Source: Planctomycetaceae bacterium (GTDB taxonomy: Bacteria > Planctomycetota > Planctomycetia > Pirellulales > Pirellulaceae). Taken from it: a stretch of DNA of 47,498 bases. Below the pieces are notes generated by a model. The model was given only the letters and a program-made list of their open reading frames with translations, ran no database searches and was not told the origin of the DNA. Shown here piece after piece: positions 5,310 through 28,949 of this stretch. The translations under genes and the position numbers were made by a program. The stretch spans positions 1-47,498 of the forward strand of contig PBOG01000264.1 in NCBI GenBank assembly GCA_002724245.1, read 5' to 3'. Positions within the stretch are counted from its first letter, which is position 1; each line of letters starts with the position of its first letter.

Positions 5310-5387
5310 ATTCGCCATAAAGTAGGCTTGGCCCGTACTTGCGAGCCTAAGAAACAAGTCTTTCCGCGTGACGACAGAGACCAGCTG

Positions 5388-5660
5388 ATGCCGAATTCGA
5401 GAAGTGCCAAGAAACGCCTACGCCAGTCATTTGACCGCCGCGGAGCCAATCGTGCCACCAAGTCGACAATGCGGACCCAGATTCGTAAAGTTCGCGAGGC
5501 AGTCGCTTCGGGTGACATCGATACCGCCAAGGATTTGTTCCAACAGGCGCAGCGTAAGATCGATCGGGCAGGTGCCAAGCGGGTGATTCATCCCAATGCC
5601 GCGGCCCGCACCAAGTCGCGCCTGCAGCGTCTAATCAAGACAGCCGAAGCGGCTTCATAG
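5388..5660 (+). CDS. rpsT: 30S ribosomal protein S20
   Basis: 90 residues, the usual S20 length. The start MPNSRSAKKRLRQSFDRR, the basic three-helix pattern and the KRVIHPNAAARTKSRLQRL segment are typical. S20 binds 16S rRNA early in 30S assembly. The frame is open further upstream to TTG 5328, but the family start is clearly ATG 5388. The following 239 bp before the PPC gene contain no gene I can support; a small GGAGCC/GGCTCC hairpin (5716-5730) lies there without a T-run. Confidence 0.96.
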   Translation: MPNSRSAKKRLRQSFDRRGANRATKSTMRTQIRKVREAVASGDIDTAKDLFQQAQRKIDRAGAKRVIHPNAAARTKSRLQRLIKTAEAAS

Positions 5661-5899
5661 TAGGGTCCTGCCAGGCCTGCGCTCTCGATGCGCGGGAACG
5701 ATCAATGAAGGCACTGGAGCCGTTGGCTCCGCAGTCCGCTGCCTTGGACCCCTCCAGCAGGTGGCTTCAATATGCGCCGCCCCCCTGCTTTTGTTGACGA
5801 ATGGTGTTGAATGGTCCAGAATAGACCCCTCGACGGCAGATTGTCCGCGGACTATTCCGTTCGACTTCCCACCGATCCTCCAGCAGAGGTCTTACCCTG

Positions 5900-8167
5900 A
5901 TGAACCGCACTTTTTGTTTCCTCTGCGGCGTGTTGCTGACAAGTTCCACGCTCCTGGCACAGCCCAGCGTCACGCATTCCACGCCACGGGCGGTGACACC
6001 GGGCAAGACGGTTGAGTTGACATTACACGGTGACAAGCTCACAGGGCCTTTGGAAGTCTGGACGAGTTTTCCCGCGAAAGTCGAACTCGCGGGGGGCGAT
6101 GCCAAAAACTTGAAGTGCAAGATCACGCTCGACGCGGCGGTGCCGTTTGGCATCGGCGGTGTTGTGGTTGGGAATGCGGCGGGGGGAAGTGACCCGCTCT
6201 TCCTGGTGGTGGATGACCTCGGTAGTGTTGCCGATAACGGCAAGAATCATGAACTTGCCCAGGCCCAAGTGCTCAATACTCCGATTGGTGTTGATGGTGT
6301 CAGCGACGGAGTGGTACTCGATTATTACAAAGTTGCCTTAAAGGCGGGGCAACGCATCAGCGTAGAGGTGCTGGCCGGACGAATCAGTTCAACGTTTGAC
6401 CCTGTGTTGAGACTCTTGACTTCAACCGGTGCGGAGATTGCGGTCGCCGATGACGATCCCGCCCTCGGTGCGGATTGTCGTTTGAGCCATATTGCCCAGG
6501 CAGACGGTGATGTGATTGTCGAAGTGGCGGACAGCAAGTTTGCCGGTGGTGCCCGTTATCGCCTCCGTGTTGGCGATTTTCCACTCGTCAGCACGGCGTA
6601 CCCACTGGGCGGGCGGGTTGGTTCAACCACCCAGTTTGGTTTTTCCGGTCCGGCGGTAGAAGGTGTGGAGCCTGTGCTGCTGACGGTCGGCAATAGCGGC
6701 AGCGGTGGTCAGGTTGGGGTAGCGGCACGTTTTCCGAGTGGCAAATCGAGTGCCTTGGCCCAGTTAGCGACCAGTTCGCTTCCAGAGGTGGTGGAATCTG
6801 AGCCCAATAATGATAAAGAGACCGCAACCCAGGTGGCGACCTCCTGTGCCGTGAACGGTGTTCTCAGTTCAGAGAAAGACCAGGACTATTACCGGTTTTT
6901 GGCAACTAAAGGACAGCGTTTGACGCTCCGCACAAAGTCGCGCAGTCTTGGTTCCCCGATGATTGCCTATGTGCAACTGCAGAAGCCGGATGGCGGCGTC
7001 GTCGGCCAGACGAATGTGGCGGGTGAGGAAGAGCAGACTGTCAGCCTGGTGATCCCGGAAACTGGCACCTATCAATTAGTTGTTGAAGATTTGCTCAAGC
7101 GTGGTGGTCCTGGCTTTGGCTACCGCGTGGAGATTGAAAACGGGAATTCGTTTTCGCTCGCTATCAAGAATGACAAGAACACCAAAGATAAGTTCCTGAC
7201 ACCAATTCACGACGGAGCTTTTGCCCTGGATGTACAATGTGCCCGTCAGGGGTATGACGGCCCTGTTGTGTTGACCTTGGAAGGTGATGCCGAGGGGTTT
7301 GAGCTGTTTAATGCGACGATTCCAGCAAAAGGAGCTGCTGCCAAGGTGATCGTCGCAGTTCCCCCTCATTTTAAGCCGGGTGATCTGCGGGTGCTGCGGT
7401 TAGTGGGGCGGGCCACTATCAACGGTCGCGAAGTCACACGTACGCTGCGTACTGCTGCCTATGTCCGGACCAAACGCCAGCAAATGATTTATCCGCCCGC
7501 TTGGACCGACGGTTTGTTGACCGTGGTGACGGGCAATAAAGCTGGGCCCTTCTTTGATGTTGCCACTGACAAGCAAGTGATTCACTTTGCTCGCGCTTTG
7601 GGGACTACCCAGTGGGCATTCACGCTGCAACGCAAGCACAAGGATTTCAAGGCGGGGATCACGGTTGCCCATAGCGAACTGCCGGCCGGTTTTACTTTGG
7701 CAGTCAAACAGGAGAAGGATAAATACAACCTGACGTTGAGCGGCCCCAAGGACCTTCCGCTGGGGCGGCAGGCGCTTAAATTGCTTTGCTACGGTGAAAT
7801 GGGCCGCGGCCAGACAGTAGTGCACACGTTGCCCGTGGAGGTGATTGACCCGGTCGCCGTTTCCTTGACGCCGGCTGGTGCTGTGGCGGCGGGCAAGACG
7901 CAGAAGGTGAAAATCACGGCGGTCCGCAAGGGCACCGATCCGCAGCCAATTACGGTGAAATTCACCAAGCTACCTCCGGGGGTGACGACTGCAGAGCAGT
8001 TTACGATCCCCGCAGACAAGAACGAGATTGAAGTGGAACTGACGGCCGCCGGTGATGCGGCGGCTGTAAAGTTTGACCAGCTGACGGTAGAAGCGGCCTC
8101 GAAGTACTCGGGCCAGGACATCAAGGCGGTCAGCGCTCCGGCTGCGATCGAAGTGACTAAAGGTTAG
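5900..8167 (+). CDS. Secreted PPC-domain protein
   Basis: 755 residues. A signal peptide (MNRTFCFLCGVLLTSSTLLA, cleavage near residue 21) is followed by an Ig-like IPT/TIG-type segment (PSVTHSTPRAVTPGKTVELT). Two PPC (bacterial pre-peptidase C-terminal) beta-sandwich domains lie at about 110-225 and 295-405. The second begins with the diagnostic EPNNDKETATQV motif and contains DQDYYRFLATKGQRLTLRT. The rest is further beta-rich repeats without a recognisable catalytic domain. PPC domains are usually removable or binding modules on secreted proteases; here they stand without a protease. Planctomycete genomes often place such genes beside DUF1549 and cytochrome-WD40 genes, as here, suggesting a shared extracytoplasmic complex (inference). 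An AGAGG at 5884-5888 could act as ribosome binding site for ATG 5900. Confidence 0.85.
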   Translation: MNRTFCFLCGVLLTSSTLLAQPSVTHSTPRAVTPGKTVELTLHGDKLTGPLEVWTSFPAKVELAGGDAKNLKCKITLDAAVPFGIGGVVVGNAAGGSDPLFLVVDDLGSVADNGKNHELAQAQVLNTPIGVDGVSDGVVLDYYKVALKAGQRISVEVLAGRISSTFDPVLRLLTSTGAEIAVADDDPALGADCRLSHIAQADGDVIVEVADSKFAGGARYRLRVGDFPLVSTAYPLGGRVGSTTQFGFSGPAVEGVEPVLLTVGNSGSGGQVGVAARFPSGKSSALAQLATSSLPEVVESEPNNDKETATQVATSCAVNGVLSSEKDQDYYRFLATKGQRLTLRTKSRSLGSPMIAYVQLQKPDGGVVGQTNVAGEEEQTVSLVIPETGTYQLVVEDLLKRGGPGFGYRVEIENGNSFSLAIKNDKNTKDKFLTPIHDGAFALDVQCARQGYDGPVVLTLEGDAEGFELFNATIPAKGAAAKVIVAVPPHFKPGDLRVLRLVGRATINGREVTRTLRTAAYVRTKRQQMIYPPAWTDGLLTVVTGNKAGPFFDVATDKQVIHFARALGTTQWAFTLQRKHKDFKAGITVAHSELPAGFTLAVKQEKDKYNLTLSGPKDLPLGRQALKLLCYGEMGRGQTVVHTLPVEVIDPVAVSLTPAGAVAAGKTQKVKITAVRKGTDPQPITVKFTKLPPGVTTAEQFTIPADKNEIEVELTAAGDAAAVKFDQLTVEAASKYSGQDIKAVSAPAAIEVTKG

Positions 8168-8261
8168 CAGTCGTAGCCAGCGGTCGCGGCAAGTGGTTTT
8201 CGAGTTAGTTTTGAATGAGTGTTGCTGGTGGCTGGGGATCGATACCCGGCGACGGCATCGG

Positions 8262-8302
8262 TTAGAGCTTTTATTGACAGATCGTATAAACTATTCGGAT
8301 GT
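8262..8302 (+). promoter_or_regulatory. Possible promoter before the DUF1549 gene
   Basis: The 165-bp gap before 8333 has an AT-rich stretch with a perfect TTGACA at 8274-8279 and TATAAA at 8285-8290. The two are only 5 bp apart, so they cannot be the -35 and -10 of one sigma-70 promoter. TATAAA could instead pair with TTAGAG at 8262-8267 (17-bp spacer). A weak call, based on motif matching only. Confidence 0.22.
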
Positions 8303-8332
8303 TCCGAATTTCCTAGGTGAAGGGGATCAGGT

Positions 8333-11155
8333 ATGCAACGGACCGCTACATCGCTGATACACGGGATGGCTTGCATGGCGGCGGGCGCCTTGTGCTGGAC
8401 AATGTTGGCATCAGTGGCCCTGAGTCAGGATGATTTGGAGGCCGTAGAGGTGGGGACGCCAGAGCGGATCGAGGTCTATCCTGCCGAGATCAAATTGACC
8501 GGGCCACGGCAGCGGATGCAGCTCGTGGTTACGGGCCATTATGCGGGTGGCATACTGCAGGATCTCACCCGAGTTGCCGAGTTTGTGTCTTCCGATGAAG
8601 CGATTGTAAAGATCACTGCAGCACGTGTGGCTCCACAAGGTGATGGGGCAGCCGAAATCGTAGTCAGAGTCGGCGGCCAGGAAGCTAAAGTGGCTGTAGC
8701 CGTCAGTGGCCAGGGCCAGCCGGAGCCGGTGAGTTTTGAATACGGGACGTTGGCGGCGCTCTCCAAGCAGGGTTGTAACGCAGGTGCCTGTCACGGCTCC
8801 CCCAGTGGCAAAGGTGGGTTCCGCCTTTCTTTGCGGGCTTTTGATCCGACTTTGGATCGGTTGACCTTGATTCGCGAGGATTTTGGCCGCAGGACAAATC
8901 CACTCGACCCAGCCGCCAGCTTGTTGTTGCTCAAACCTTTGATGAAGGTGCCCCATGGCGGTGGGTTGAAGTTGCACTCCACAGATCCCTCCTACGCGAT
9001 CTTGCGTGATTGGATTTCGGAGGGGTGTCGATTGGATCCTCCTGAAGCGCCGCGTTGTGTGAGTATTCAGGTTTATCCACCGTCGGGCCGAGTGCTGAAG
9101 CGGCCAGCCCATACCCAGCAACTGAGTGTTCTGGCGACGTTCTCCGACGGATCGGTGCGCGACATCACGCAGTTGGCGGTGTACACAAGTTCTGATACCG
9201 AAGTGGCTGACGTTTCGGTGGATGGACTGGTTGTCGGGCAGGATCGGGGTGAAACTGCTGTCGTGGTTCGTTACATGGAATTTATTGAATCGGTTTTCAT
9301 CACGTTTGTACGCGATATTGAAGGGTTTGCTTGGACGAACCCGGCTACCAACAACTATGTCGACGAGCATGTCTACGCCAAGTTGCAGCAACTCAAATAC
9401 CTGCCTTCGGAATTGTGCAGTGACGAAGAGTTTCTTCGCCGTACTTATCTGGACGTGATTGGTATTTTGCCGACCGTTGAGGAGACCAGCCGGTTTCTGA
9501 CTGATCAGGCAGCTGACAAACGCGCACGTTTGATCAATGAACTGTTAGATCGCCCCGAGTACTCCAAGTTTTGGGCGCTCAAGTGGGGTGACATCTTGCG
9601 GTTGACCAGCGGTCAGGTTGGTGGCGATGGCGTCCACAAATACTATCGTTGGGTTGAACGCGCGATTCGTGAGAACATGCCCTACGATCAGTTTTCACGC
9701 AAACTGCTGGCTTCGGCGGGTAGTACGTTGACCAATCCTCCGGCGAATTTTTATCGGACTGCTGGAGACACTAACGATTGTGTTGAAACGGTCTCCCAGG
9801 TGTTTCTTGGCGCGCGGCTTCAATGTGCAAAATGCCACAACCACCCGTTTGAACGCTGGACTCAGGACAACTACTACGGGATGGCGGCATTTTTCAATCG
9901 CGTTCAGCGAAAGAATGGCCGCCGGCCAGGCGAGAAATTTATTTTCGTATCACGGAGTGGCGAAGTAACGCAGCCACGTACCGGGAAGCAAATGAAACCG
10001 TGGCTGCCCTTGGCCGGTGATGTGGACCAGCCGAATCCCGATGACCGTCGACAAACTTTTGTCGATTGGTTGACCAAGGCAGACAATCCGTTTTTTGCCA
10101 AGATCGAGGTGAACCGCATTTGGAGCCACCTGCTTGGGCGCGGAATTGTTGAGCCGGCGGATGATTTCCGCGAATCGAATCCTCCCTCCAACGCAGCGTT
10201 GCTGGACGCGTTGGCCCTGGACTTTGTGGAACAGAAATATGATCGAAAGCATGTGATACGTACGATTCTGAATAGCCGTACGTATCAGGCGAGTTTCAAA
10301 CCGAACGCGATGAATGAAGAAGACACCAAGTACTTCTCACATTATCAGCCTCGTTTGCTCAGCGCCGAACAATTGCTGGATGCAATCTGCCAGGTCACCG
10401 ATCGGCCAGAGAGTTTCTCAGGATTGCCCGCGGGTACCCGTGCCACTCACTTGCCGGCTCCCGATCTGGTCAAACACGATTTCCTGAAAATCTTTGGCCA
10501 GCCAGAACGCCAGACGGTTTGTGCTTGCGAGCGATCGAGTGAGTCAAACCTCGGTATGGCGATCCAGTTCTTCAACGGGCCGTTGATTTACAACAAGCTC
10601 CGGGATGAAGGTAATCGCTTCCGGCAGCTGATGAAACTGGAGAAAACGGACAGCGATATCATCAAAATGTTGCATTTGGCTGCTGTGAATCGTGAACCAA
10701 CGGCCAAAGAATTGGAGGCAAGCTTGCAGCACATTGCTTCCAAGGATGGTGAATCAGCGAAGAAAAACAAGGAACTTGAAGCCAAGATCGCAGAGGTTGG
10801 CAAACAAGTTCAAGCAGTTCGTGACCCGGCCTTCCAGAAATTGCTCGATGCTAAGTTGGCAACGGTTCCAGAACCGTTGCGTGCTGACGCCAAAACGGCG
10901 GTGCTCACAGCAGAAGGGAAGCGGAGCGAGGTGCAGAAGTATCTCGTGGCGAAGTTTGGTAAAGGCCTGGTGGTTAGTGATGAAGAGGTGGTCAAGGCAC
11001 TCGACGACGCTACCAAAAAGAAACTGGAAGCGCTAAAGAAGGAGCTTGCTGAGCTGCCAAAACAAAAACTGCCACCCGGATCTGACCGAATTATGGCGTT
11101 GGAAGATATCTGCTGGGCGATCTTGAATACGAACGAGTTCCTGTTCCAGCATTAG
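8333..11155 (+). CDS. Ig-like/DUF1549/DUF1553 secreted heme-motif protein
   Basis: 940 residues with an N-terminal signal sequence (to about residue 31). A bacterial Ig-like (BIG2-type) domain covers about 44-125. Next comes a cytochrome-like segment GCNAGACHGSPSGKGGF with C148-x4-C153-H154, then a second Ig-like domain (about 245-330), DUF1549 (about 340-550) with the c-type heme motif C498-A-K-C501-H502, and DUF1553 (about 580 to the end). The last conserved helix (LEDICWAILNTNEFLF) is separated from the preceding DUF1553 part by a Lys/Glu/Ala-rich helical insert (about 785-920). Function is unproven for the family. The heme motifs, export signal and planctomycete restriction suggest an extracytoplasmic electron-transfer or surface role (inference). 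Unlike the other two copies in the window it has no DUF1501 partner; a PPC gene precedes it and a cytochrome-WD40 gene follows. Confidence 0.85.
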   Translation: MQRTATSLIHGMACMAAGALCWTMLASVALSQDDLEAVEVGTPERIEVYPAEIKLTGPRQRMQLVVTGHYAGGILQDLTRVAEFVSSDEAIVKITAARVAPQGDGAAEIVVRVGGQEAKVAVAVSGQGQPEPVSFEYGTLAALSKQGCNAGACHGSPSGKGGFRLSLRAFDPTLDRLTLIREDFGRRTNPLDPAASLLLLKPLMKVPHGGGLKLHSTDPSYAILRDWISEGCRLDPPEAPRCVSIQVYPPSGRVLKRPAHTQQLSVLATFSDGSVRDITQLAVYTSSDTEVADVSVDGLVVGQDRGETAVVVRYMEFIESVFITFVRDIEGFAWTNPATNNYVDEHVYAKLQQLKYLPSELCSDEEFLRRTYLDVIGILPTVEETSRFLTDQAADKRARLINELLDRPEYSKFWALKWGDILRLTSGQVGGDGVHKYYRWVERAIRENMPYDQFSRKLLASAGSTLTNPPANFYRTAGDTNDCVETVSQVFLGARLQCAKCHNHPFERWTQDNYYGMAAFFNRVQRKNGRRPGEKFIFVSRSGEVTQPRTGKQMKPWLPLAGDVDQPNPDDRRQTFVDWLTKADNPFFAKIEVNRIWSHLLGRGIVEPADDFRESNPPSNAALLDALALDFVEQKYDRKHVIRTILNSRTYQASFKPNAMNEEDTKYFSHYQPRLLSAEQLLDAICQVTDRPESFSGLPAGTRATHLPAPDLVKHDFLKIFGQPERQTVCACERSSESNLGMAIQFFNGPLIYNKLRDEGNRFRQLMKLEKTDSDIIKMLHLAAVNREPTAKELEASLQHIASKDGESAKKNKELEAKIAEVGKQVQAVRDPAFQKLLDAKLATVPEPLRADAKTAVLTAEGKRSEVQKYLVAKFGKGLVVSDEEVVKALDDATKKKLEALKKELAELPKQKLPPGSDRIMALEDICWAILNTNEFLFQH

Positions 11156-11289
11156 TTCGGCAGTGTGCCTCCAGAGCCGGCCTTGCGGTGTTTGCGTCGC
11201 AGGCCGGTCGCTGGCAGAGTGCGTAGTCCGCGTCTTTGTCGCCGCGGCGGAATGGTTTGTGTTTTCCCTTTTTCAGGTTGATCGAGCCA

Positions 11290-12645
11290 ATGCGTTATTC
11301 AGTCGTGGTGTTGTTGACCGTTTCAGCGGGCCTGGTGACCTCGGCGGCGGCGGAGCCAGTTAGTTTTCGCAAACAAGTTGCGCAGATTCTGTTGGACAAC
11401 TGCCTGGCCTGTCACGGTCCGAAAAAGGCTGAGGGTGGCTACCGAATTGATGCTTACGAGCGTTTGATCAAGGCCGGTGATTCTGATGAAGTTGCGGTCA
11501 CGCCGAGTAAGTTGGATGCCAGCGAGTTGTTTCGGCGCATTGTCACGGAAGATGAAAGCGAGCGCATGCCACTGGAGGGTGACCCACTCCCGGCGGAGCA
11601 GATCGCCCTGATCAAGCAGTGGATCGAGGAAGGCGCCAAGTTTGACGGTGACGATCCGAAAGCGGCACTGGCTACGATCGTGCCACCTCCAGTGCACCCC
11701 TCGCCGCCAGAAGTTTACGCCAATTCGTTACCCATTACGGCGCTCACCTTCAGCCCAGATGGTAGCCAGTTGGCAGTCAGTGGCTACCACGAATTGACAG
11801 TTTGGAACCCCGCCGATGGCAAGTTGATCAAACGCGTCCACAACATTGGTCAGCGCACCCATGCGATCACTTACAGTCCTGACGGAAAGTTGCTGGCTGT
11901 GGGCGGTGGTACCCCTGGACGACTGGGAGAAACTCGCATTTTCAATGCTGAAAACGGTGAACTGGTAAGGGTGCTGGGGTCGACTTCGGACGTGGTTTTG
12001 GATGTCGCGTTCTCTCCCCAGGGTGACCGGCTCGCCGCGGGTTCTGCAGACGGCGTCATTCGCGTTTTTGAAGTCGCTACCGGAAAACCTGTGCAGACAA
12101 TTACGAGTCATTCGGACTGGGTGATGGCGATTGCCTGGAGTGTTGATGGAGCGCGCATCGCTTCTGGAAGCCGTGACAAGACGGCAAAGGTCTTTGACTC
12201 CAAGACCGGTGAACTACAGGTGACGTTCTCAGGACATGGGCAACCAGTGAAAGGCGTAGCCTTTCATCCGGAGGGCAAGGAAGTGTTTAGCGCTGGGACA
12301 GACAAGAAGGTTCAGCGTTGGAAAATTGAGGATGGTAAAAAGACTGCTGACGTCGGCAGTTTTGGAGAAGAGGTCTATAAATTGACCGCTGGTGGCGGTT
12401 TCTTGTTCACCGGTTCGGCGGACAAATCGGCGCGACAATACGACCGCAAGAGCCATAAAGAAGTGCGGAAGTATGAAGGCCACAAAGACTGGGTCTTGTC
12501 GACCGCGTATCACGATGGAAGCAAACGCCTGGCGACAGGCAGCTTCGACGGTGAGGTCCGCGTGTGGAACACCGAAGACGGCAAGATTGTCGTTACGCTG
12601 TTGGCCGCGCCGGGCTTGAAACTGGCAGCGGCCGAGGGCTCTTGA
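11290..12645 (+). CDS. Planctomycete cytochrome c-WD40 fusion protein
   Basis: 451 residues: signal peptide MRYSVVVLLTVSAGLVTSAAA, then a PSC1-type cytochrome domain with C38-L-A-C41-H42 in DNCLACHGPKKAEGGYRID, ending near residue 125. Seven or so WD40 blades follow (about 140-440), recognisable from TFSPDGSQLAVSG, AFSPQGDRLAAGS, AWSVDGARIASGSRDKTAKV and RLATGSFDGEVRVWN. This is a periplasmic or surface protein, with heme on one side and a protein-interaction propeller on the other. ATG 11290 is preferred to the upstream in-frame start at 11236 because it leaves a normal signal peptide. It lies 134 bp after the DUF1549 gene on the same strand and is probably functionally coupled to it (inference). 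Confidence 0.9.
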   Translation: MRYSVVVLLTVSAGLVTSAAAEPVSFRKQVAQILLDNCLACHGPKKAEGGYRIDAYERLIKAGDSDEVAVTPSKLDASELFRRIVTEDESERMPLEGDPLPAEQIALIKQWIEEGAKFDGDDPKAALATIVPPPVHPSPPEVYANSLPITALTFSPDGSQLAVSGYHELTVWNPADGKLIKRVHNIGQRTHAITYSPDGKLLAVGGGTPGRLGETRIFNAENGELVRVLGSTSDVVLDVAFSPQGDRLAAGSADGVIRVFEVATGKPVQTITSHSDWVMAIAWSVDGARIASGSRDKTAKVFDSKTGELQVTFSGHGQPVKGVAFHPEGKEVFSAGTDKKVQRWKIEDGKKTADVGSFGEEVYKLTAGGGFLFTGSADKSARQYDRKSHKEVRKYEGHKDWVLSTAYHDGSKRLATGSFDGEVRVWNTEDGKIVVTLLAAPGLKLAAAEGS

Positions 12646-12729
12646 TGCTCGACGGTCTGCACGCATTGCCCGCGGGCGGGTTGGCTACCGGAACTTTTTC
12701 GTTTCGGTTTCCGCAGGGCAACTGAAGAT

Positions 12730-13812
12730 ATGTCGGATGTGTATCCCATGGTTGAGACCTTGCGATGGTCGGGTGATTGGAATGGCGAGTTAGTGCTGCT
12801 CGACCAGACCAGGTTGCCGCTGGAACATGTCGACCACACCTGTGCAGATCTGGAGTCCGTTTGGGAAGCGATTCGGTCTCTCCGTGTGCGCGGTGCCCCA
12901 GCAATTGGCATTGCCGCGGCTTACGGCGTTTGTGTCGGTGTGCAGGGAATTGAGGACGCGGACGAGGATGGTTTTTTTTTGCGTCTGGACACGGTTGTCA
13001 AGCGGCTGGGGGCGAGTCGCCCCACGGCGGTGAATTTATTCTGGGCTTTGCAACGGATGCAGTCCTGCGCTGAGCAAATGCGTGGATCAGGATCGACCAT
13101 TCAGATCCGACAAGCGCTGCTGGAAGAAGCACACGCGATTCACGCAGATGACCGTCAGATGTGTCGCGCAATTGGCACACATGGTGCCGAATTGCTGTCC
13201 GACGGAATGGGTGTGTTGACCCACTGTAATGCAGGTGGCCTGGCGACCTCCGAATATGGCACCGCATTGGCGGTGTTTTTCACAGCACAGGAACAAGGCA
13301 AACAACTCAAGGTTTATGTAGACGAGACCAGGCCTTTACTCCAAGGAGCGCGTTTAACGGCCTGGGAATTGACGCAGCGGGGCATTGATACGACCTTGAT
13401 TTGTGATTCGATGGCGGCCCAGGTGATGCGTGAGGAACGTGTTCAGGCTGTGGTCACAGGAGCCGATCGTATTGCTGCAAATGGTGATACGGCCAATAAG
13501 ATAGGGACTTACGGACTGGCGCTGCTGGCTGCAGCACACCAGATCCCCTTTTACGTTGCTGCGCCCACGAATACGTTTGATTTGACGCTAAGCAGTGGTG
13601 ATGACATTCCCATTGAAGAACGAGATGCTCGAGAGATAACCCACGGGTTCGGTAAGCAAACAGCACCCTCCAGAGTGGCCGTCTACAATCCAGCCTTTGA
13701 TGTCACTCCAGCGTCCTTGATCCACGGGCTGATTACCGAGCGTGGTCTGATTGCGCCGGTGAATCGTGAGGCGATCGCCAACCTGATTCCAGGGGGGGCG
13801 GACGCCCGGTAG
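12730..13812 (+). CDS. mtnA: S-methyl-5-thioribose-1-phosphate isomerase
   Basis: 360 residues. It converts methylthioribose-1-phosphate to methylthioribulose-1-phosphate in the methionine salvage pathway, in the cytoplasm. Signature motifs are present: RGAPAIGIAAAYG (54-66), THCNAGGLAT with the catalytic cysteine C166, DETRPLLQGARLTAWEL (198-214) and GADRIAANGDTANKIGTYGLA with the catalytic aspartate D246. Length fits the family. No other methionine salvage gene (mtnB, C, D, K) is adjacent. The 85-bp gap to the cytochrome-WD40 gene and the unrelated function suggest an independent unit. The related eIF2B-like proteins share the fold, but the Cys/Asp pair and RGAPAIG favour MtnA. Confidence 0.95.
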   Translation: MSDVYPMVETLRWSGDWNGELVLLDQTRLPLEHVDHTCADLESVWEAIRSLRVRGAPAIGIAAAYGVCVGVQGIEDADEDGFFLRLDTVVKRLGASRPTAVNLFWALQRMQSCAEQMRGSGSTIQIRQALLEEAHAIHADDRQMCRAIGTHGAELLSDGMGVLTHCNAGGLATSEYGTALAVFFTAQEQGKQLKVYVDETRPLLQGARLTAWELTQRGIDTTLICDSMAAQVMREERVQAVVTGADRIAANGDTANKIGTYGLALLAAAHQIPFYVAAPTNTFDLTLSSGDDIPIEERDAREITHGFGKQTAPSRVAVYNPAFDVTPASLIHGLITERGLIAPVNREAIANLIPGGADAR

Positions 13813-14033
13813 CAGGCCTTTCAGCCGTTTTTTCGTCTGTCAGAGCGGGTTTTCTGAAAATCGTACCTCGCCATGTTAGAGTGGCAGAGAGAGTGAGCCT
13901 GGCAAATGCGTTGACCGTGGCGCGTTCTTCGTCAGGCCTTTGATCCGGCAAACGTCTTTCTGATTTGCTTAACATCCTAAGGTAGAGCGTCGACTTGCCT
14001 GTGGCCAGGCCGCGTTCTCCAAGGAGTGCTACC

Positions 14034-17000
14034 GTGTCTTTTTCGAGTCGTTTGGTCGTGGTGATGTGCCTTGTGGCTTGCGGTTTCCAGCAGGTTCCGC
14101 TTACTGGCCACAGGGGTGCCCAGGCAAGGGCCAGTGACAATACGCAGCCGGTTGCTGGTCTGCGCACCAATACGCCTGCAGTATACGCATTGAAAGATGT
14201 ACGCATCGTGAGGGCACCAGGCGAAGTTCTTGAGCAAGGGGTGTTAGTCGTTCGTGATGGAGTGATCAGTGCGATCGGGGCCAACGTGCCGATACCGGCA
14301 GATGCCCGAGTCTGGTCACGGCCTGGTATCACACTTTATCCAGGTTTGATCGATGGCTTCAGCGAGCTGGAAATTTCTCCGGGCGACCGCCCTCAGGGTG
14401 CGCATCATTGGAACGAACTCATTCGCCCTGAAGTTCGCGTAGCGGATCGTTATCAGTCAAAGCCAACCTTGAATGCGTCCTGGCGCAGCCAGGGAATCAC
14501 AACGCGGCTTATTGCACCGCCGCAGGGAATTCTCAAGGGCCGCAGCGCTCTGGTGGCAACAGGGGATGCGTCGCGGGCGGCTTCGATCCTGGAACCGGAT
14601 GTGGCACTACATGCCCGGCTCACGGTACCCCGTGGTCGCGGGCGGAATGCGTACCCGAATTCGCCGATGGGTGCGGTGGCACTGGCGCGACAGACTATGC
14701 TCGACGCGAATTGGTACCAGCAGGCCTGGTCCGCTTTTCGCAGTCAACGCGGACTGCCACGCCCCGATCAAGATCTCGCATTGGAGGTATTGGGCGCCTA
14801 TTCAGGAAGTGGAAGGTTGGTCGTCATCGATGCGCCGAATGAACTGTACGCGCTCCGTGCGGACCGCTTTGCGCGGGAATTTTCATTGAATCTCGTGATT
14901 CGTGGATCGGGTCGCGAGTACAGGCAGCTATCAGCGATTCAGGCATTGGGACGGCCGGTGATTGTGCCGCTGAACTTTCCCAAGCCCCCTAACGTGGGTA
15001 CCGCGGAGGCCGCTTTAAATGCGTCATTGGAGAGTATGCGACACTGGGAGCTGGCTCCTGAAAACCCGGCTCGACTGTCGCGTGCTGGCGTGTCGATTTT
15101 GTTGACGCGGAGTGGACTTCCCAAAGCCGTGTCTTTGCTTGCGGCGGTTCGTAAAGCGGTACAGCATGGGCTGGCAGCCGATGCGGCATTGGCTGCACTG
15201 ACGACAACTCCGGCAAAGTTGTTTGGCGTGGAGGATCGACTGGGAACGTTACACGCTGGCAAGCGTGCTAATTTCTTGCTCACTGATGGTGCGCTCTTTG
15301 CAACAAAGACGAAAGTCCTGGAGACCTGGGTCGACGGTCGTCCTTACGAAAACATTCCGGCCCGGAACGATCCCGCTGGGCGGTGGCGTTTAGTTGGACA
15401 GCAAGAAACACGACCGCTTCTTCTCGATGTGACTGTGGCTGGGGAGAAGTTGTCTGGTGCCGTGCGGCGTGCCGAAAATCCGGATGCAGCGGATGCCGCT
15501 CCTGCGACACCGTTACTACGATTGGCGGCCGCTGGAGATCGGTTGACAGCGATTTTTGACGCCGAGGCGTTCGGTCAAAAGGGGGTGGCTCGACTGACCC
15601 TGGTGCTCTTCAAGAAAGAGAAGTGGAGCGGGCGTGGCCAGGTAATATGGCCCGATGGTGTCGCCGAGAAGATCACGGCAACTCACAACAGCCCTACGCG
15701 GCCAGGTGGTGGAGCAAACCGGGAAAAGCCGCCCCAGCCGGCTGTCACTCAGAGCAAGCCAAAGCGGGTACGGGAGCCGCTGCGTTATCCGTTAGGCGCT
15801 TTTGGCGTCTTGCAGCAGCCAGAGCAGCCGGAGCATGTGTTGTTCAAGAATGCCACGCTCTGGACTTGTGCGCAACGCGGTATTCTCAGGAATGCTGAGA
15901 TCTTGATTGGTGGCGGAAAAATCCTCTCAGTGGGGCGGCGACTGCGGACGCCACCAGGCACTCGTGTAATCGATTGTCAGGGCAAGCACATCACGCCGGG
16001 AATCGTTGATTGTCATTCACATATGGCGACGGATGGTGGTGTGAATGAAAGTGCACAGGCGATCACAGCGGAAGTGCGGATCGGCGATTTTATTGACTCG
16101 AACGATGTCAATATTTACCGTCAGTTGGCGGGAGGGGTGACTTCCTCAAACATCCTCCATGGGTCGGCAAATCCAATTGGTGGACAAAATCAGGTTATCA
16201 AACTCCGGTGGGGGGCATTGCCGGAGGATTTGAAATTTGTGGAGGCTCCAGCGGGAATCAAATTTGCGCTCGGAGAGAATGTCAAACAGAGCAACTGGGG
16301 TGATGAGTTTACGACCCGCTATCCACAGACACGGATGGGAGTTGAGCAGATTATCCGCGGCACTTTTCAAGCTGCCTTGGATTACCAGCAACGCTGGCGG
16401 GATTGGGAACGGCAGCGGCAGGGGTTGCCACCACGACGTGATCTCGAACTGGAAGCAATCTCAGAGGTGCTGGGAGGGCAACGTTGGATTCACTGCCACA
16501 GCTATCGCCAGGATGAAGTCCTGGCATTAATTCGCACGCTCGATGATTTCCAAATCACGATTGGTACCTTCCAACACATTCTGGAAGGCTACAAGGTGGC
16601 CGATGCGCTGGCACGCCACGGTGCTATGGCGTCTGCATTTTCTGATTGGTGGGCCTATAAGTTCGAGGTCTACGATGCGATTCCGTATGCCGGTGCGTTA
16701 ATGCACAACGCGGGCGTTGTCGTCTCATTCAATTCCGATGATCGTGAACTTGCCCGGCATCTCAATCATGAGGCTGCCAAGGCGGTGAAGTATGGAGGCG
16801 TGCCCCGTCAGGAGGCGCTCAAATTTGTCACGTTGAATCCCGCCAGGCAATTACGCATCGACCGGTATGTAGGCTCGCTCGAATCGGGGAAACACGCAGA
16901 CCTGGTCGTCTGGAGCAAGTCGCCGTTGTCTACTTTTTCGGTTTGTGAGCAGACTTGGATCGATGGCCGCCGGTACTTTTCGCGTAGTGAAGATCTTCGC

Positions 17001-17165
17001 AGACGAGAGTCGGTGCGTCGTAGCCGGACACGATTGGTCCAGAAAATATTGGCTTCTGGCGAGGTGATGCTCAAGCCTGGTGAAGCTACGCCACCCGACG
17101 AGCAACTATGGCCTCGGGAGGATGTGTTTTGCCACCACCATCGTCACGTTAATGGTCATGACTGA
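14034..17165 (+). CDS. Double amidohydrolase-fold protein, one barrel degenerate
   Basis: 1,043 residues from GTG 14034, which has AAGGAG at 14021-14026 and gives a short lipoprotein-like or Sec signal (MSFSSRLVVVMCLVACG). An in-frame TTG at 13995 would add 13 polar residues and is less likely. Two tandem amidohydrolase units follow. The N-terminal unit (about 45-450) keeps the beta-sandwich borders (VRIVRAPGEVLEQGVLVVRD, GTLHAGKRANFLLTDG). It has LIDGFSELE where HxH should be and LLTRSG where the beta-8 aspartate should be. The C-terminal unit (about 610-1020) looks catalytically complete: IVDCHSHMATDGG (HxH), WIHCHSYRQDE (beta-5 His), TFQHILEGYK (beta-6 His) and VVVSFNSDDREL (beta-8 Asp), ending with GSLESGKHADLVVW. 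Probably an imidazolonepropionase/prolidase-like hydrolase of unknown substrate, exported. It is followed 116 bp later by another degenerate barrel. Confidence 0.85.
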   Translation: MSFSSRLVVVMCLVACGFQQVPLTGHRGAQARASDNTQPVAGLRTNTPAVYALKDVRIVRAPGEVLEQGVLVVRDGVISAIGANVPIPADARVWSRPGITLYPGLIDGFSELEISPGDRPQGAHHWNELIRPEVRVADRYQSKPTLNASWRSQGITTRLIAPPQGILKGRSALVATGDASRAASILEPDVALHARLTVPRGRGRNAYPNSPMGAVALARQTMLDANWYQQAWSAFRSQRGLPRPDQDLALEVLGAYSGSGRLVVIDAPNELYALRADRFAREFSLNLVIRGSGREYRQLSAIQALGRPVIVPLNFPKPPNVGTAEAALNASLESMRHWELAPENPARLSRAGVSILLTRSGLPKAVSLLAAVRKAVQHGLAADAALAALTTTPAKLFGVEDRLGTLHAGKRANFLLTDGALFATKTKVLETWVDGRPYENIPARNDPAGRWRLVGQQETRPLLLDVTVAGEKLSGAVRRAENPDAADAAPATPLLRLAAAGDRLTAIFDAEAFGQKGVARLTLVLFKKEKWSGRGQVIWPDGVAEKITATHNSPTRPGGGANREKPPQPAVTQSKPKRVREPLRYPLGAFGVLQQPEQPEHVLFKNATLWTCAQRGILRNAEILIGGGKILSVGRRLRTPPGTRVIDCQGKHITPGIVDCHSHMATDGGVNESAQAITAEVRIGDFIDSNDVNIYRQLAGGVTSSNILHGSANPIGGQNQVIKLRWGALPEDLKFVEAPAGIKFALGENVKQSNWGDEFTTRYPQTRMGVEQIIRGTFQAALDYQQRWRDWERQRQGLPPRRDLELEAISEVLGGQRWIHCHSYRQDEVLALIRTLDDFQITIGTFQHILEGYKVADALARHGAMASAFSDWWAYKFEVYDAIPYAGALMHNAGVVVSFNSDDRELARHLNHEAAKAVKYGGVPRQEALKFVTLNPARQLRIDRYVGSLESGKHADLVVWSKSPLSTFSVCEQTWIDGRRYFSRSEDLRRRESVRRSRTRLVQKILASGEVMLKPGEATPPDEQLWPREDVFCHHHRHVNGHD

Positions 17166-17281
17166 GTCGGTACTGGGAAGGACTGTTTTTCTGAGGCCGT
17201 TTTGCAGGGCGATGTGAGATAAAGCAGGAACAGTAATAGCAGGGTTTTACAGATTTGTTAATCCCGCGGGAGATGGACACC

Positions 17282-18604
17282 ATGATCGGGCGGTTTGTTT
17301 GTATTGCAGTGTTCCTGTTTGGCTCCTCGATGCCTGTGGTGACGTTCGCGTCTCCAGAGATTCCTGGCGCGCCCCAGACGGCTCCAATCGCTCTCGTGGG
17401 TGGGACGGTGTACCCGGTTTCGGGGCCGACGATCGAAGGCGGTGTTGTTCTATTCCGTCGCGGACGTATTTCGTATGTGGGCCGTAAGCGGTCTTTTCCA
17501 GCAGGCACCAAAGTTATCGATGTGTCCGGGAAGCATGTTTTTCCGGGCTTATGTGATGCCTATACAAATTTGGGACTGGTTGAAGTCAACCGGGTCCGCG
17601 CGAGTGTCGATCATGCTGAAACGGGACAACTCAATCCGAACGTTCGTGCACAAGTCGCCGTCAACCCCGACAGTGAGTTGATTCCTGTGACGCGAAGTAA
17701 TGGTGTGTTATTGGCGGCCACCGTTCCCACAGGAGGTCTGATGGCAGGCAAGTCCGCTGTTCTGCAACTGGACGGATGGACTTATGAAGATCTCACGGTG
17801 AAAGCTGAGGCAGGGTTACACATCAATTGGCCCAGCATTTCTCCGCACGACGAATGGTGGGTCGAAGGAACGACGGCAAGCCGATTACGGCAAAGTACGC
17901 AGGCGTTAAAGGCATTGCAGCAGGCGTTCGACGATGCCCGAGCGTATCACCGGAGCCGTTTGGCGGATGCCAGTCAGCCGACGGATGTCCGCTGGGAGGC
18001 GATGCGTCCGGTCATCGAGGGAGAGTTGCCGGTCATTGTTTCGGCAAATGAACTTCAGCAAATTCAGGATGCGGTCGCGTTTGCAGTTCGTAATAAAGTC
18101 CGCTTGATTATCTATGGAGGTTATGACGCGGTCCACTGTGCAGCCGCGCTTGTTGAGCATGAGGTCGCCGTAATCGTTGGCAATGTGTACCGGTTGCCGC
18201 GCCGTCGCGATGATGATTACGACGCAGCCTTTACGCTTCCAGACCGATTGCGGCGGGCAGGGGTCAAGTTCTGCATTTCAGGTTCTGGCCGATTTGGGGC
18301 GGCCAATGTGCGAAATCTTCCTTATCACGCGGCCACCGCCGTTGCCTATGGTCTTCCCAAAGAGGCTGCGCTGCGGGCAATTACACTCTCACCGGCAGAG
18401 ATTCTGGGGACTGCTGATCGGGTCGGATCGTTGGCCAAAGGAAAGGATGCTACGCTGTTTGTGGCCAATGGTAACCCGTTATTGACCGCTACCAGGGTTG
18501 AGTCCGCCTATATCCAGGGGCGTCGCGTAGTACTTTCCGATCGCCACAAGAGACTCTGGCGAAAATATCGCGAGAAGTACCGTCGCATCGGCCAGCCCGA
18601 ATAG
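17282..18604 (+). CDS. Amidohydrolase-fold protein lacking metal ligands
   Basis: 440 residues from ATG 17282. A GGAG at 17269-17272 sits 9 bp upstream, and the resulting N-terminus (MIGRFVCIAVFLFGSSMPVVTFA) is a good signal peptide. The flanking beta-sandwich segments are classic for the amidohydrolase superfamily (GGTVYPVSGPTIEGGVVLFR, VIDVSGKHVFPGLCDAYTNL, VGSLAKGKDATLFVANGNPL). The HxH motif is replaced by DAYTN, the beta-5 histidine region reads IVSANELQ, and the beta-8 aspartate region reads CISGSGRFG. It is therefore probably not a metal-dependent hydrolase. The central GGLMAGKSAVLQLDGW segment resembles lines seen in uncharacterised exported amidohydrolase-like proteins of several phyla. 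Adjacent to and co-oriented with the double-barrel gene, it may form a complex with it (inference). Confidence 0.8.
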   Translation: MIGRFVCIAVFLFGSSMPVVTFASPEIPGAPQTAPIALVGGTVYPVSGPTIEGGVVLFRRGRISYVGRKRSFPAGTKVIDVSGKHVFPGLCDAYTNLGLVEVNRVRASVDHAETGQLNPNVRAQVAVNPDSELIPVTRSNGVLLAATVPTGGLMAGKSAVLQLDGWTYEDLTVKAEAGLHINWPSISPHDEWWVEGTTASRLRQSTQALKALQQAFDDARAYHRSRLADASQPTDVRWEAMRPVIEGELPVIVSANELQQIQDAVAFAVRNKVRLIIYGGYDAVHCAAALVEHEVAVIVGNVYRLPRRRDDDYDAAFTLPDRLRRAGVKFCISGSGRFGAANVRNLPYHAATAVAYGLPKEAALRAITLSPAEILGTADRVGSLAKGKDATLFVANGNPLLTATRVESAYIQGRRVVLSDRHKRLWRKYREKYRRIGQPE

Positions 18605-25310: not shown

Positions 25311-28300
25311 CTAGTGCCCGATACTTCGCTGCCGATGTGGTCCGTCAAGACGTGTTGTGTGCGGACTGGCCGGGCCGCTGCCTGTTTCGAGCATTTCAGG
25401 CGAATCGGATGGCGTTGCTTCAGTTGTCGTGCTCGCCATTGCGGGGCCGTTGGTGTGTTCGCGTGGTGGGTTTCTCTTGCCGGGGGGGCAAAAGAAACGC
25501 CCTAGCGGGCTGGCAAGCAGGCCTGGCAGCATGACCAGGTCACCAAGTAATGCCGCCGACAGGAGTGTCAGCATCAGGGTTCCGAAACGTTGTGTGGGAG
25601 TAAAGGTACTGAAGGAGAGCACCGAAAATCCGAGGCCGCCGATCAATGTGGTCTGTGTCATGGCCGCGCCAACCCGACGGTAGGCCAGGATCACTGCTTC
25701 GTGGCGGGGCAGTCCTGCGGTGACACCGTTACGGAACCAGGTCAGAAAATGGATCGTGTCGTCGACGGCGACGCCCATGGCAACGCCGGCGCACATCATG
25801 GACCCGATATCGACCACGATTCCCAAGTGCCCCATCGCTCCAAATACGAGTACGACAGGGAATACATTGGGAAGCATTGACAAGGCCCCACCACCTAGAT
25901 TGACCGCACGCAGCGGTTTGAACGGGCGTTCCCAGTTGCCCAGTAGAAAGACCATTACCCCGGCGATCATGACGAACGCCCAGAAGATACTGATCACGAG
26001 GCTGTTGAGGAGGGTGTGCTGGGCCTTGTAGACAATGGGGACGACACCGGTGTAAGTCACCCGGATCTTCTCAGTTGCGCCGGTTGTTTCGTGACGCTGT
26101 TTGGCAGTCAGGTGGGTTAGTGGGGATTGGCTGGTTATGTCGAACTGATGGCTGCGCACATCGACGAAATGCTCGCTACGCTCCTGCAACGCAGGCAGGT
26201 CGTACAAGGGGTGATCCGCGGCGAACACCAGGCAATCAAAACGCGCGGCAAACTCAGCCCATTTCTCGGGTGAGTCTTTCATGAGCTGGGCAAATTTGTC
26301 AGTTTGGGGGTCGTGCCAGAAGAGAGTCTGCTTGGCACGCAGGGTTTGGCGGTAGCCGTTGGCATGCAGTAGCCGATTGAGTGTCCTCGCAAAGAGAGCA
26401 CTTTGGCATTCGCCGATACGCCCGGATTTCCAAAGGGCAGCCAGGTCGGCCGGATTCTTGCCGCCGGGGTTTGCCACACCGAGGATTAGTAGTTTGGAGT
26501 TCAGGTATCCCACGGTACCGGGTTCTTCGTCGAGCTTGCGCAGGATTTCTTCTCGGTAACGGCAGGCCAGCAGGATCGGTTCAACGACTTTCTTTAGTTC
26601 GCTGACAAACGCGCCGTAATCGACATCGCTTAATGCAGCAACCCGAATACTGATGCGCCACAACTCGTGGTTATCGACGTCATCAATGGCGAGGTACTCT
26701 TCGGCCAGTAATTCATCCATTGCTTGCTCAATGCGCTGGTCGAAAATGCCGCGCATCCGCTTGCCCGCCCGATTCGGGAACGGTACGTCGGGTACAAAGC
26801 TCGCGACGGACATGCCGTTACCGACAACTTCCTGGCCGCCGTTACCAAATACCTCGCTCACAGCGGCCTGTATGAGTCCCACCACTTCGACGCGTTCGAC
26901 CGTGTTGAGTCGAAAGAAGAAGTCGTGACGCTGTTCGTCTGTCAACGTATCGGCTTCCCGGCGTTGCGTGATTTCTTCGCGCGTCGGTTGGATCAGATCT
27001 GGGCTGAAGTGGACAATCAACTCCATCGGGACCAGTTGACCGATCTGGTCTTCGATCCAGGCGTAGTCCTTGATCACTTTGGCGCTTGGATCGAAGAGTT
27101 TGAGCAATTTAACTGAGGTCTGAACTTTGGTCAGTCCCATCCCGATGGCAACCATCAGAAGAACACATCCCAGCGTTACAGGCCAGTGCCACCGGATGAC
27201 GAATCGTCCTGTCATTTCCCAGAACTGAGCGACCCAGCCTTCAGACTCAGCGGCGTTGGCGTTTGATTGATTACGGAAACGCGGTGGAAAGACCGCCAAT
27301 GCGGAGGGTAGAAACGCAAACAGAAAAGTGAGGCTGGCGAGTACACCGATTGCCGAATAAAGGCCGAAGTTGCTGATCGGCACTACGTTGCTGCTGTGGA
27401 GGGAAACAAGTCCCAGGGCGGTCGTAATCGCTGCCAGCGTGCACGGCCACCAGGCATGCGCCAGGGCGCGTTCCGAGGCACCGGCAACGCCGTGTTCGCG
27501 TACCGCATCCCGGTAGTAATTGACAATGTGGACGGCGCCTGAAATCCCCAGTACGTAGACCAGCGAAGGCATCGACATCAAGATCGCATCGACATTTCCG
27601 TTCGTCCAGCCGACGATTCCCAGGCTGACTACGGCGCTCATCGCACCAACCAGGAAGACTGCGGTTGTTACTTGAAAGCTGCGGAAACAGAGGTAGGACA
27701 GCACGATGCCCAGCCCGATACTGAGACCTACCAGCCGTACCAGCGTGATTTGCCCTTCTTCGTCAATGGCCACGTTGTCGACTAACGGGCCGCCTGCCCG
27801 CAAGACGGAATCTGCCAACGGTGGATCTTTGCCCCAGGGCGTCAGAGGCGGTATCGGTGGTGGCAGAATACCCGACTCGACTGCCAGGTCGACGAGTTTG
27901 CCACGCGGTTTCCCGAGAATACCGCGTCCCAATACGTTGCGGGTATCCTCCAGCCCGGCTTCACTCAGGGTGACCATGATCCCGGTCAATTTACCATTGT
28001 CTGAGTAGAGAATCCCTTTCAGCCGTTCCAGGGCGAGCCGTCGACCTTCGGCAGTCCGCTGCTCGGACTCTTCGCCGACTGGCTGAAGTTGTTCCGTCAG
28101 ACGTTTAAGCACCTCTGGACCGGAATCAATCGATTTCAACACCCGCGCAGTAAGTTTTCGCGGGTCTTCGTAGAACGGGTTACTCTGCGCTTTGGTGGTA
28201 ATGGTCTCTGTGGCAGCGGTTTCTGTCGAAGCACTTTCAGTGGGGTCTGCTTCTGTTGACGTTTGGGTGCCAAAGGTGTCAATGTAGCTGCTATTGACGT

Positions 28301-28949
28301 GTTTTCCACGGAGCAGTCGCTGGATGGAGCGGTTGGCCCAACCGAGAAAATTTTCCCGCCCTTTCCATTGGTGGAGTTCGCCGCTGGGCGTAATGAAGTA
28401 CCACTGGTTGTTGCGCCCTTTCAGCCAGCGTTCCTGTTGTCCACCCCAGTCCTGAAAGTCATCCGGAATGGTATACAGCCCCAGTTGGTCGCCAACGCGC
28501 CGAGCCCGTTCAATTTCCAGCCTCAGGTTCTGATCTGCCGTCAGTTCGTCTTCGTCGGCGGTATTGCTGGCCTCGCCGGGAACGGTGGGCGGTGCCACTT
28601 CCTGTTGCAGCTTCTTGACGAATGTGCGGAAACGTTCATCATCTTCCGAACACCCTTGCCAGGACAGGAGTACAAAGCCCTGATCTGTGACGAAGTAACG
28701 TCCGGCCCAGGCGAGGTCTTTGGTTTCCGTAAACCCGTCCGGCAACCAGTCCTTCATGTCGTTCTTCATTCCCTGCAGTGCCAGCTTGGCACCGTAGGTG
28801 CCGAACGGGTACAGGAAGAAGATCATGCACAGGATCAAGACGGCGCGATTGCCGAAGTAAGGGACGCGGCGTGCCAGAAAAGAAGAGTCCATCAGGGAGA
28901 CTGTGTCCTCTGACAACGGCTGGCTACGAGGCGTCGTACGATCGCGCAC
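25311..28949 (-). CDS. MMPL/RND-family exporter
   Basis: 1,212 residues from GTG 28949. ATG 28892 (MDSSFLARRVPYFGNRAVLI) would shorten it by 19 residues; neither start has a strong Shine-Dalgarno sequence. A first membrane helix (about 35-57) precedes a long non-membrane region (about 58-390). The first sterol-sensing-like helix bundle (about 395-580) includes LGISGAVHIVNYYRDAV. A second large extracytoplasmic domain (about 610-1000) and a second bundle (about 1010-1170) follow, with the classical GVAMGVAVDDTIHFLTWF motif carrying the DD pair associated with proton translocation in RND/MMPL proteins. It probably uses the proton-motive force to move lipids or hydrophobic compounds (family inference). 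It is larger than many MMPL proteins because of the N-terminal insert, which has no recognisable fold to me. Confidence 0.85.
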   Translation of the reverse strand: MRDRTTPRSQPLSEDTVSLMDSSFLARRVPYFGNRAVLILCMIFFLYPFGTYGAKLALQGMKNDMKDWLPDGFTETKDLAWAGRYFVTDQGFVLLSWQGCSEDDERFRTFVKKLQQEVAPPTVPGEASNTADEDELTADQNLRLEIERARRVGDQLGLYTIPDDFQDWGGQQERWLKGRNNQWYFITPSGELHQWKGRENFLGWANRSIQRLLRGKHVNSSYIDTFGTQTSTEADPTESASTETAATETITTKAQSNPFYEDPRKLTARVLKSIDSGPEVLKRLTEQLQPVGEESEQRTAEGRRLALERLKGILYSDNGKLTGIMVTLSEAGLEDTRNVLGRGILGKPRGKLVDLAVESGILPPPIPPLTPWGKDPPLADSVLRAGGPLVDNVAIDEEGQITLVRLVGLSIGLGIVLSYLCFRSFQVTTAVFLVGAMSAVVSLGIVGWTNGNVDAILMSMPSLVYVLGISGAVHIVNYYRDAVREHGVAGASERALAHAWWPCTLAAITTALGLVSLHSSNVVPISNFGLYSAIGVLASLTFLFAFLPSALAVFPPRFRNQSNANAAESEGWVAQFWEMTGRFVIRWHWPVTLGCVLLMVAIGMGLTKVQTSVKLLKLFDPSAKVIKDYAWIEDQIGQLVPMELIVHFSPDLIQPTREEITQRREADTLTDEQRHDFFFRLNTVERVEVVGLIQAAVSEVFGNGGQEVVGNGMSVASFVPDVPFPNRAGKRMRGIFDQRIEQAMDELLAEEYLAIDDVDNHELWRISIRVAALSDVDYGAFVSELKKVVEPILLACRYREEILRKLDEEPGTVGYLNSKLLILGVANPGGKNPADLAALWKSGRIGECQSALFARTLNRLLHANGYRQTLRAKQTLFWHDPQTDKFAQLMKDSPEKWAEFAARFDCLVFAADHPLYDLPALQERSEHFVDVRSHQFDITSQSPLTHLTAKQRHETTGATEKIRVTYTGVVPIVYKAQHTLLNSLVISIFWAFVMIAGVMVFLLGNWERPFKPLRAVNLGGGALSMLPNVFPVVLVFGAMGHLGIVVDIGSMMCAGVAMGVAVDDTIHFLTWFRNGVTAGLPRHEAVILAYRRVGAAMTQTTLIGGLGFSVLSFSTFTPTQRFGTLMLTLLSAALLGDLVMLPGLLASPLGRFFCPPGKRNPPREHTNGPAMASTTTEATPSDSPEMLETGSGPASPHTTRLDGPHRQRSIGH

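Follow-up and report, generated by a model that had tools for sequence, protein, structure and literature searches.

Two adjacent genes of a Planctomycetaceae bacterium (assembly GCA_002724245.1, contig PBOG01000264.1, positions 1 to 47,498, the whole of which is here called the window) encode three amidohydrolase barrels, of which only one carries the residues of a metal site. Gene A encodes barrels A1 and A2, and gene B, directly downstream, encodes the third; A2, which has the metal site, is referred to as live, and A1 and B, which have lost it, as dead. We hypothesize, with a probability of roughly 0.7, that the two genes specify an exported hetero-oligomer of one catalytic barrel and two structural pseudoenzyme barrels, which arose when, after an ancient duplication, one of the copies lost its metal site. 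A1 and B are probably long-term partners of A2, because the same set is kept in many bacteria and is sometimes fused into a single chain; the existence of both split and fused versions of the same three barrels is the strongest sign that they make up one working assembly.

What is new in this arrangement is the pairing of dead paralogues with a live barrel of their own family, in exported proteins, in several phyla and in several states of fusion. A literature search returned no description of a live barrel arranged with dead paralogues in this way, although subscription papers lay largely outside that search and the absence is therefore unproven. The natural split and fused versions, with two or three barrels, allow live and dead paralogues to be compared side by side, where pseudoenzymes are usually studied singly, and would permit a direct test of the point at which, and the reason why, a dead copy can no longer be dispensed with. 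The system also holds a warning for annotation: both proteins are scored as amidohydrolases, although catalysis is to be expected of only one of their three barrels.

One live barrel and two dead barrels

The main parts of the two genes, all on the forward (+) strand and given with the basis of each assignment, are as follows.

14034..17165 (+): gene A, double-barrel amidohydrolase of 1043 amino acids, predicted exported (open reading frame list, model)
14034..14174 (+): N-terminal export signal and disordered lead of gene A, residues 1-47 (model, hydropathy)
14175..15353 (+): barrel A1, residues 48-440, dead (alignment, model)
15354..15800 (+): A1-A2 linker, residues 441-589, mostly predicted beta strands (model)
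15801..17054 (+): barrel A2, residues 590-1007, predicted live (alignment, model)
17282..18604 (+): gene B, single dead barrel of 440 amino acids, predicted exported (open reading frame list, alignment, model)

Both reading frames, and every motif quoted from them in the initial annotation of this DNA, were found where that annotation had placed them. A2 of the window carries HSH, HCH, QH and D; A1 reads LIDGFSELE, DAPNE, RGSG and LLTRSG, and B reads CDAYTN, VSANE, YGG and SGSG. A further site, absent from the initial annotation, is the beta-4 glutamate of A2 (in FALGENVK), which neither A1 nor B retains. The sites are listed below.

16014..16022 (+): A2 beta-1 HSH (H661, H663), predicted metal ligands, in 64/64 rows
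16275..16277 (+): A2 beta-4 glutamate, E748 of FALGEN, predicted metal ligand, in 64/64 rows
16491..16499 (+): A2 beta-5 HCH (H820, H822); the first histidine is Q or N in 3/34 phylum rows
16575..16577 (+): A2 beta-6 histidine, H848, in 64/64 rows
16737..16739 (+): A2 beta-8 aspartate, D902, in 64/64 rows
14358..14366 (+): A1 beta-1 site, F-S-E in place of HxH (alignment)
14829..14837 (+): A1 beta-5 site, D-A-P in place of HxH (alignment)
14904..14906 (+): A1 beta-6 site, glycine of GSGxEY in place of histidine, glycine in 55/56 rows
17561..17569 (+): B beta-1 site, Y-T-N in place of HxH (alignment)
18041..18049 (+): B beta-5 site, S-A-N in place of HxH (alignment)
18116..18118 (+): B beta-6 site, glycine of GGYDA in place of histidine, glycine in 79/80 rows
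18284..18286 (+): B beta-8 site, serine in place of aspartate; D in 10/80 rows

In each barrel we scored the seven columns that putatively hold ligands or catalytic residues, the ligands being named by analogy with the superfamily. The locus set consisted of the window and the best 80 of at least 584 relatives that the B alignment retrieved when one genome per species was scanned; an alignment row was counted if it spanned at least 85% of the query barrel, a threshold that removed one of the 80 loci from the B set. That metal ligands occur only in the second barrel of gene A, as first proposed, holds throughout this set: all seven residues are present in 64 of 64 A2 rows, whereas A1 has none in 53 of 56 rows and one in the other 3, and B has none in 40 of 80, one in 34 and two in 6. 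The same pattern appears in 34 loci from a sample of genomes across the phylum (A2, 7/7 residues in 31/34 rows and 6/7 in 3/34; A1, 0/7 in 25/29, 1/7 in 3/29 and 2/7 in 1/29; B, 0/7 in 20/34 and 1/7 in 14/34), and by eye in order-level rows (29 for A1, 29 for A2 and 27 for B, including fragments), where even the A2 that diverges most (L054) still has HxH, HVH, EH and SD. A2 has the residues of the catalytic metal site of the superfamily (beta-1 HxH, beta-4 acid or lysine, beta-5 and beta-6 histidines, beta-8 aspartate), and A1 and B lack them. The ligand-equivalent columns of A1 and B hold no conserved substitute set of His, Asp, Glu or Cys, though a new metal site elsewhere in either barrel is conceivable. 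In a related bile salt hydrolase, replacing any of the six metal-site residues by alanine is reported to abolish activity, and its beta-4 ligand is a carboxylated lysine where A2 has glutamate; the part of that report at hand describes no dead partner (PMC13081902).

Four B rows (L105, L106, L125 and L128) retain the beta-1 HxH with the remaining five residues gone, and may represent an early or partly regained state.

One element of the initial annotation did not stand, namely that APNE and SANE at the beta-5 sites betray a shared style of loss. The E of SANE is glutamate in only 18 of 80 B rows, and the middle alanine may be ancestral, because it is also found in the solved Thermotoga maritima structure 3ooq (HAH). 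These motifs, not being conserved, were set aside as evidence of common loss, and common origin was tested by phylogeny instead.

Selection on the dead barrels

A1 and B are under purifying selection, weaker than that on A2, as judged from substitution rates and protein identities. Between the window and its relative G002, the nonsynonymous (dN) and synonymous (dS) rates are 0.060 and 0.61 for A1 (dN/dS ~0.10), 0.021 and 0.68 for A2 (~0.03), 0.041 and 0.62 for B (~0.07), and 0.127 and 0.54 for the linker (~0.24), which is the least constrained part. Between the window and G001, where synonymous sites are near saturation, protein identity is 75% for A1, 89% for A2 (part) and 80% for B. The proposal that the dead barrels are selected rather than decaying is borne out by these values.

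Export had been predicted for all three barrels, and simple hydropathy agrees, with a hydrophobic N-terminal core in 51 of 53 A proteins and 54 of 56 B proteins. The N-terminus of gene A in the window includes a lipobox-like LVAC; such a sequence occurs in only 3 of the 53 A and 1 of the 56 B proteins.

Conservation of the gene pair and its fused forms

Among the best 80 loci, the gene carrying A2 lies directly upstream of B in 68, while 10 end less than 600 bases from B and 2 are without it, so that, where there is room upstream, the two genes are neighbours in 68 of 70 loci. The gene pair is conserved, and neither of the outcomes that the initial annotation gave as refuting was observed. In 8 of the 68 adjacent loci A1 was not found; by their coordinates, nearly all of these contigs start within A. 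A separate search of genomes for A was positive in five of six. Within the order the two genes co-occur: among 40 relatives, B was detected in 29 (E <1e-60) and A2 in 28, the one mismatch (G007) being a genome in which the A gene lies in pieces on two contigs. At the level of the phylum, at least 49 of 149 sampled genomes have a B match (E up to 1e-60), up to 11 candidates having been scored in each genome. The records of 14 of the best 80 loci are titled outside Planctomycetota (Zixibacteriota, Calditrichota, TA06, Ignavibacteria, KSB1 and Bacteroidota), and 4 further loci are titled only as bacterium; these labels are record titles, mostly of metagenome-assembled genomes, and are to be treated with care.

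The 34 loci taken from the 49 phylum genomes with a B match were surveyed for fusions, their barrels being classified by profiles. A1, A2 and B form one open reading frame of 1321-1663 amino acids in 7 of the 34 (L169, L170, L172, L173, L176, L178 and L179; the A1 match of L172 is weak). A separate A1 stands with a fused A2-B in 10 (L171, L177, L180-L185, L188 and L200), with the A1 and A2-B reading frames overlapping in L171 and L177, and the arrangement of the window, A1-A2 separate from B, is found in 12 (L174, L175 and L189-L198). One locus (L199) has A2-B at a contig edge, and four (L186, L187, L201 and L202) have a live and a dead gene with A1 undetected. The order A1, A2, B is constant wherever it is visible. 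The initial annotation had proposed that one active barrel forms a complex with two others that are structural or regulatory; the fusions lend strong indirect support to this composition, and the physical association is the part that we infer.

Related two-barrel systems

Paralogous matches led to ten further loci (L056, L057, L059-L063, L067, L069 and L070), and in all ten an A2-like live barrel is followed by a B-like dead barrel. As in A2-B, the live barrel comes first and the two are neighbouring or fused, the fused form being a single chain of 873-887 amino acids in 3 of the 10. Unlike the window, these systems are without A1, and their dead partner belongs to a clade separate from B.

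A larger cluster, excluded from the count of ten, was observed in locus L058 (G033:C16, positions 4224-16207), where seven neighbouring open reading frames encode about ten amidohydrolase-like barrels, one of which (7160-8503) appears live by eye.

Ancestry of the barrels

In a tree of 74 rows, A1, A2, B, the related live barrels and the related dead barrels each form a single clade. After removal of 11 ligand columns, and with 3ooq added as the sole outgroup, the dead barrels are not far apart, as expected if they constitute one pseudoenzyme lineage: A1 groups with B (support 98/97), and both group with the related dead barrels (100/96). Alternative groupings were rejected for A1+A2 (p 0.017), A2+B (p 0.0004) and A1+A2+B (p 0.022), and the groups were unchanged when three long A1 rows were removed. 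The simplest history has a single duplication and a single loss of the metal site; it is probable rather than certain, because the outgroup is a lone sequence on a long branch.

Nearest known relatives

The closest solved structure for all three barrels, in sequence and in fold, is 3ooq, which we take to be the product of locus TM0814; no paper was found under that name. It stands well ahead of other solved relatives for both proteins. The model of B (mean predicted local distance difference test score, pLDDT, 89.7) matches 3ooq with a Z-score of 46.9, the next structure having 25.3, and phmmer gives E-values of 1.6e-32 for 3ooq and 4.8e-9 for the next. The model of A (pLDDT 84.3) also has 3ooq as its best match (33% identity; template modelling score, TM, 0.89 on the target), with Foldseek E-values of 2.4e-31 for 3ooq and 7.6e-16 for the next other entry. 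Both 3ooq and A2 have HSH, GEN, HAH or HCH, H and D. The two differ in that 3ooq is a single barrel with its residues intact, whereas the window has a live barrel with two dead ones, a signal sequence and a beta linker.

At the family level, both proteins pass Pfam Amidohydro_1 (A 85.5 bits, B 33.0, cut-off 25), and for Amidohydro_3 (cut-off 29.7) A passes with 93.9 bits and B, with 29.6, falls just under. The named families lie far off: Xaa-Pro dipeptidase NF051886 (A 92.3 bits, B 46.9, cut-off 500), imidazolonepropionase TIGR01224 (78.1, 41.9, cut-off 298.15), N-acetylglucosamine-6-phosphate deacetylase TIGR00221 (80.4, 25.4, cut-off 225.65) and dihydroorotase TIGR00857 (52.7, 20.4, cut-off 279.05). 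Naming A or B after an NCBIfam family was abandoned, since every match is far below its cut-off. The exported or soluble dipeptidases and prolidases of the COG1228 type (3feq, 3n2c, 3mtw and 2qs8) share superfamily and fold with the window proteins (Z ~24-25 for B), but A and B come nowhere near the cut-offs of the named families.

A precedent in role, not in family, is the pseudo-dihydroorotase of Pseudomonas aeruginosa, which is reported to be inactive and yet required for aspartate transcarbamoylase activity (PMC7053772). Like the proposed A1 and B, it is an inactive chain of amidohydrolase fold that its partner needs; it supports an unrelated enzyme, whereas the barrel that A1 and B would support is their own live paralogue, and the system is exported.

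A model of the assembly and its alternatives

We propose that A and B would together make one exported hydrolase of three amidohydrolase barrels, in which A2 would be the sole catalytic barrel, a metal-dependent hydrolase akin to 3ooq. A 3ooq-like ancestor, presumably an oligomer of like subunits, would have been duplicated, with one copy retaining the metal site and the other losing it and persisting as an assembly partner; the dead lineage would later have yielded A1, fused ahead of A2, and B, behind it. The dead copies would have retained the subunit contacts, supporting the fold and the active-site loops of A2, with which the chemistry would have stayed. For B, the conserved arm between beta-1 and alpha-1 may be the surface that packs on A2; A1 may use other surfaces.

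17573..17701 (+): B beta1-alpha1 arm, residues 98-140, candidate contact with A2 (conservation and model)

The arm has an entropy of 1.08, against 1.46 for the whole of B, and within it residues 102-108 have pLDDT <50 in the single-chain model although they are conserved; in A2, residues 876-878, inside a conserved stretch, likewise have pLDDT <50. Such conserved loops of low confidence may be ordered by a partner, or a shallow alignment could account for the low scores. Catalysis by A2, the contact through the arm, the oligomeric ancestor and the complex itself are inferred from sequence and models, and for an obligate partnership fusions and co-occurrence are only indirect signs.

Several observations weigh against this model. 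Eleven of the 40 relatives lack both A and B, one genome with B (G206, locus L099) gave no match to A, and two loci (L085 and L088) carry B with A on another contig. The related dead partners retain, by eye, up to about two of the seven metal-site residues. The arm is more conserved than average in B only: the equivalent stretch is about average in the related dead partners (1.08 against 1.18) and below average in A1 (2.36 against 1.80 overall). In the phylogeny, a grouping of B with the related dead barrels is borderline (p 0.052), leaving the order of duplications open, and A2 with the related live barrels is weakly supported (85/47, or 90/57 without the three long A1 rows), these labels having been printed after re-rooting, so that they may be shifted near the root. 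The root depends on one distant outgroup (branch ~1.2), and long-branch attraction among the dead barrels is possible. The evidence for a complex of A with B is indirect.

In the genomes of L085 and L088 both genes are retained despite being unlinked.

Among other explanations, it is unlikely that the dead barrels are ligand sensors, which would regulate A2 by taking up a substrate or effector, without metal, in their old pocket. Purifying selection on both A1 and B would suit such a role, as would the near-invariant motifs that each has of its own at the barrel strands (GSGxEY in A1, GGYDA in B); the neighbourhoods of the former ligands, however, are conserved to an average degree in A1 and slightly less than that in B, random blocks being equally conserved in 2624 of 5000 and 3667 of 5000 cases respectively, against 23 of 5000 for the metal-site neighbourhoods of A2. 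Because the old pockets of A1 and B carry no special constraint, a structural role is favoured, and 'structural' fits these barrels better than 'ligand-sensing'. That either dead barrel catalyses a reaction at a new active site, perhaps metal-free or relocated, seems quite improbable: conserved polar residues are available (for example, in the numbering of the conservation analysis, R104, D177 and E248 in A1; E70, D79, E82, R107 and D133 in B), but the expected sites hold no conserved replacement set of His, Asp or Glu, and the conserved residues of B are mainly in the arm, not at strand ends.

We give the least credence of all to a tandem duplication of independent enzymes whose dead copies drift and hitch-hike beside A2. 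Duplicates are frequently side by side, and the protein sequences of A1 and B do evolve 2-3 times faster than that of A2; yet their dN/dS (~0.10 and ~0.07) is not that of drifting copies, they are retained in records titled Planctomycetota, Zixibacteriota, Calditrichota, KSB1, TA06, Ignavibacteria and Bacteroidota, the fusions preserve their order, and both genes are kept even where unlinked.

The structural partnership may extend further, and we put forward, tentatively and as something that may well not hold, that the window represents a widespread and ancient class of exported heteromeric enzymes in which a live barrel needs its dead paralogues to complete or order the active site. A single founding duplication and loss would have given rise to two-barrel and three-barrel forms, split or fused with their order kept, and, in one genome, to the L058 cluster, in which one of about ten barrels appears live.

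Other features of the locus

Gene A starts with GTG at 14034 and gene B with ATG at 17282, 116 bases beyond the end of gene A, and each start is preceded by a Shine-Dalgarno-like sequence.

14021..14026 (+): Shine-Dalgarno-like AAGGAG, 5' of the GTG start of gene A (read by eye)
17268..17273 (+): Shine-Dalgarno-like GGGAGA, 5' of the ATG of gene B (read by eye)

The product of gene A ends in a short tail C-terminal of A2. Its A1-A2 linker has no Pfam match in the window, and the linker of one homologue has a single, chance-like one (CDC45, E 0.025). A promoter scan gave 2 sites against 2.0 expected, and terminator-like sites numbered 11 against 5.2 expected, most of them within genes; neither set was used. 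Among the 466 open reading frames flanking the best 80 loci, no functional partner besides A and B was found; assigning a function from neighbours was given up, as the most widespread flanking cluster occurs in only 10 of the 80 loci, at a variable distance.

In the window, an IF-2B-like gene (Pfam) lies upstream of gene A, and a 1212-amino-acid open reading frame on the minus strand (25311-28949) has weak matches to RND transporter families, all under their cut-offs. In locus L055 (G033:C85, 4507-9106), A and B are each split into overlapping open reading frames, reflecting assembly errors or decay. A second open reading frame of the window's own genome (L203, G000:C236, 2904-6377; 1158 amino acids) has an amidohydrolase domain and a weak match to the A1 profile.

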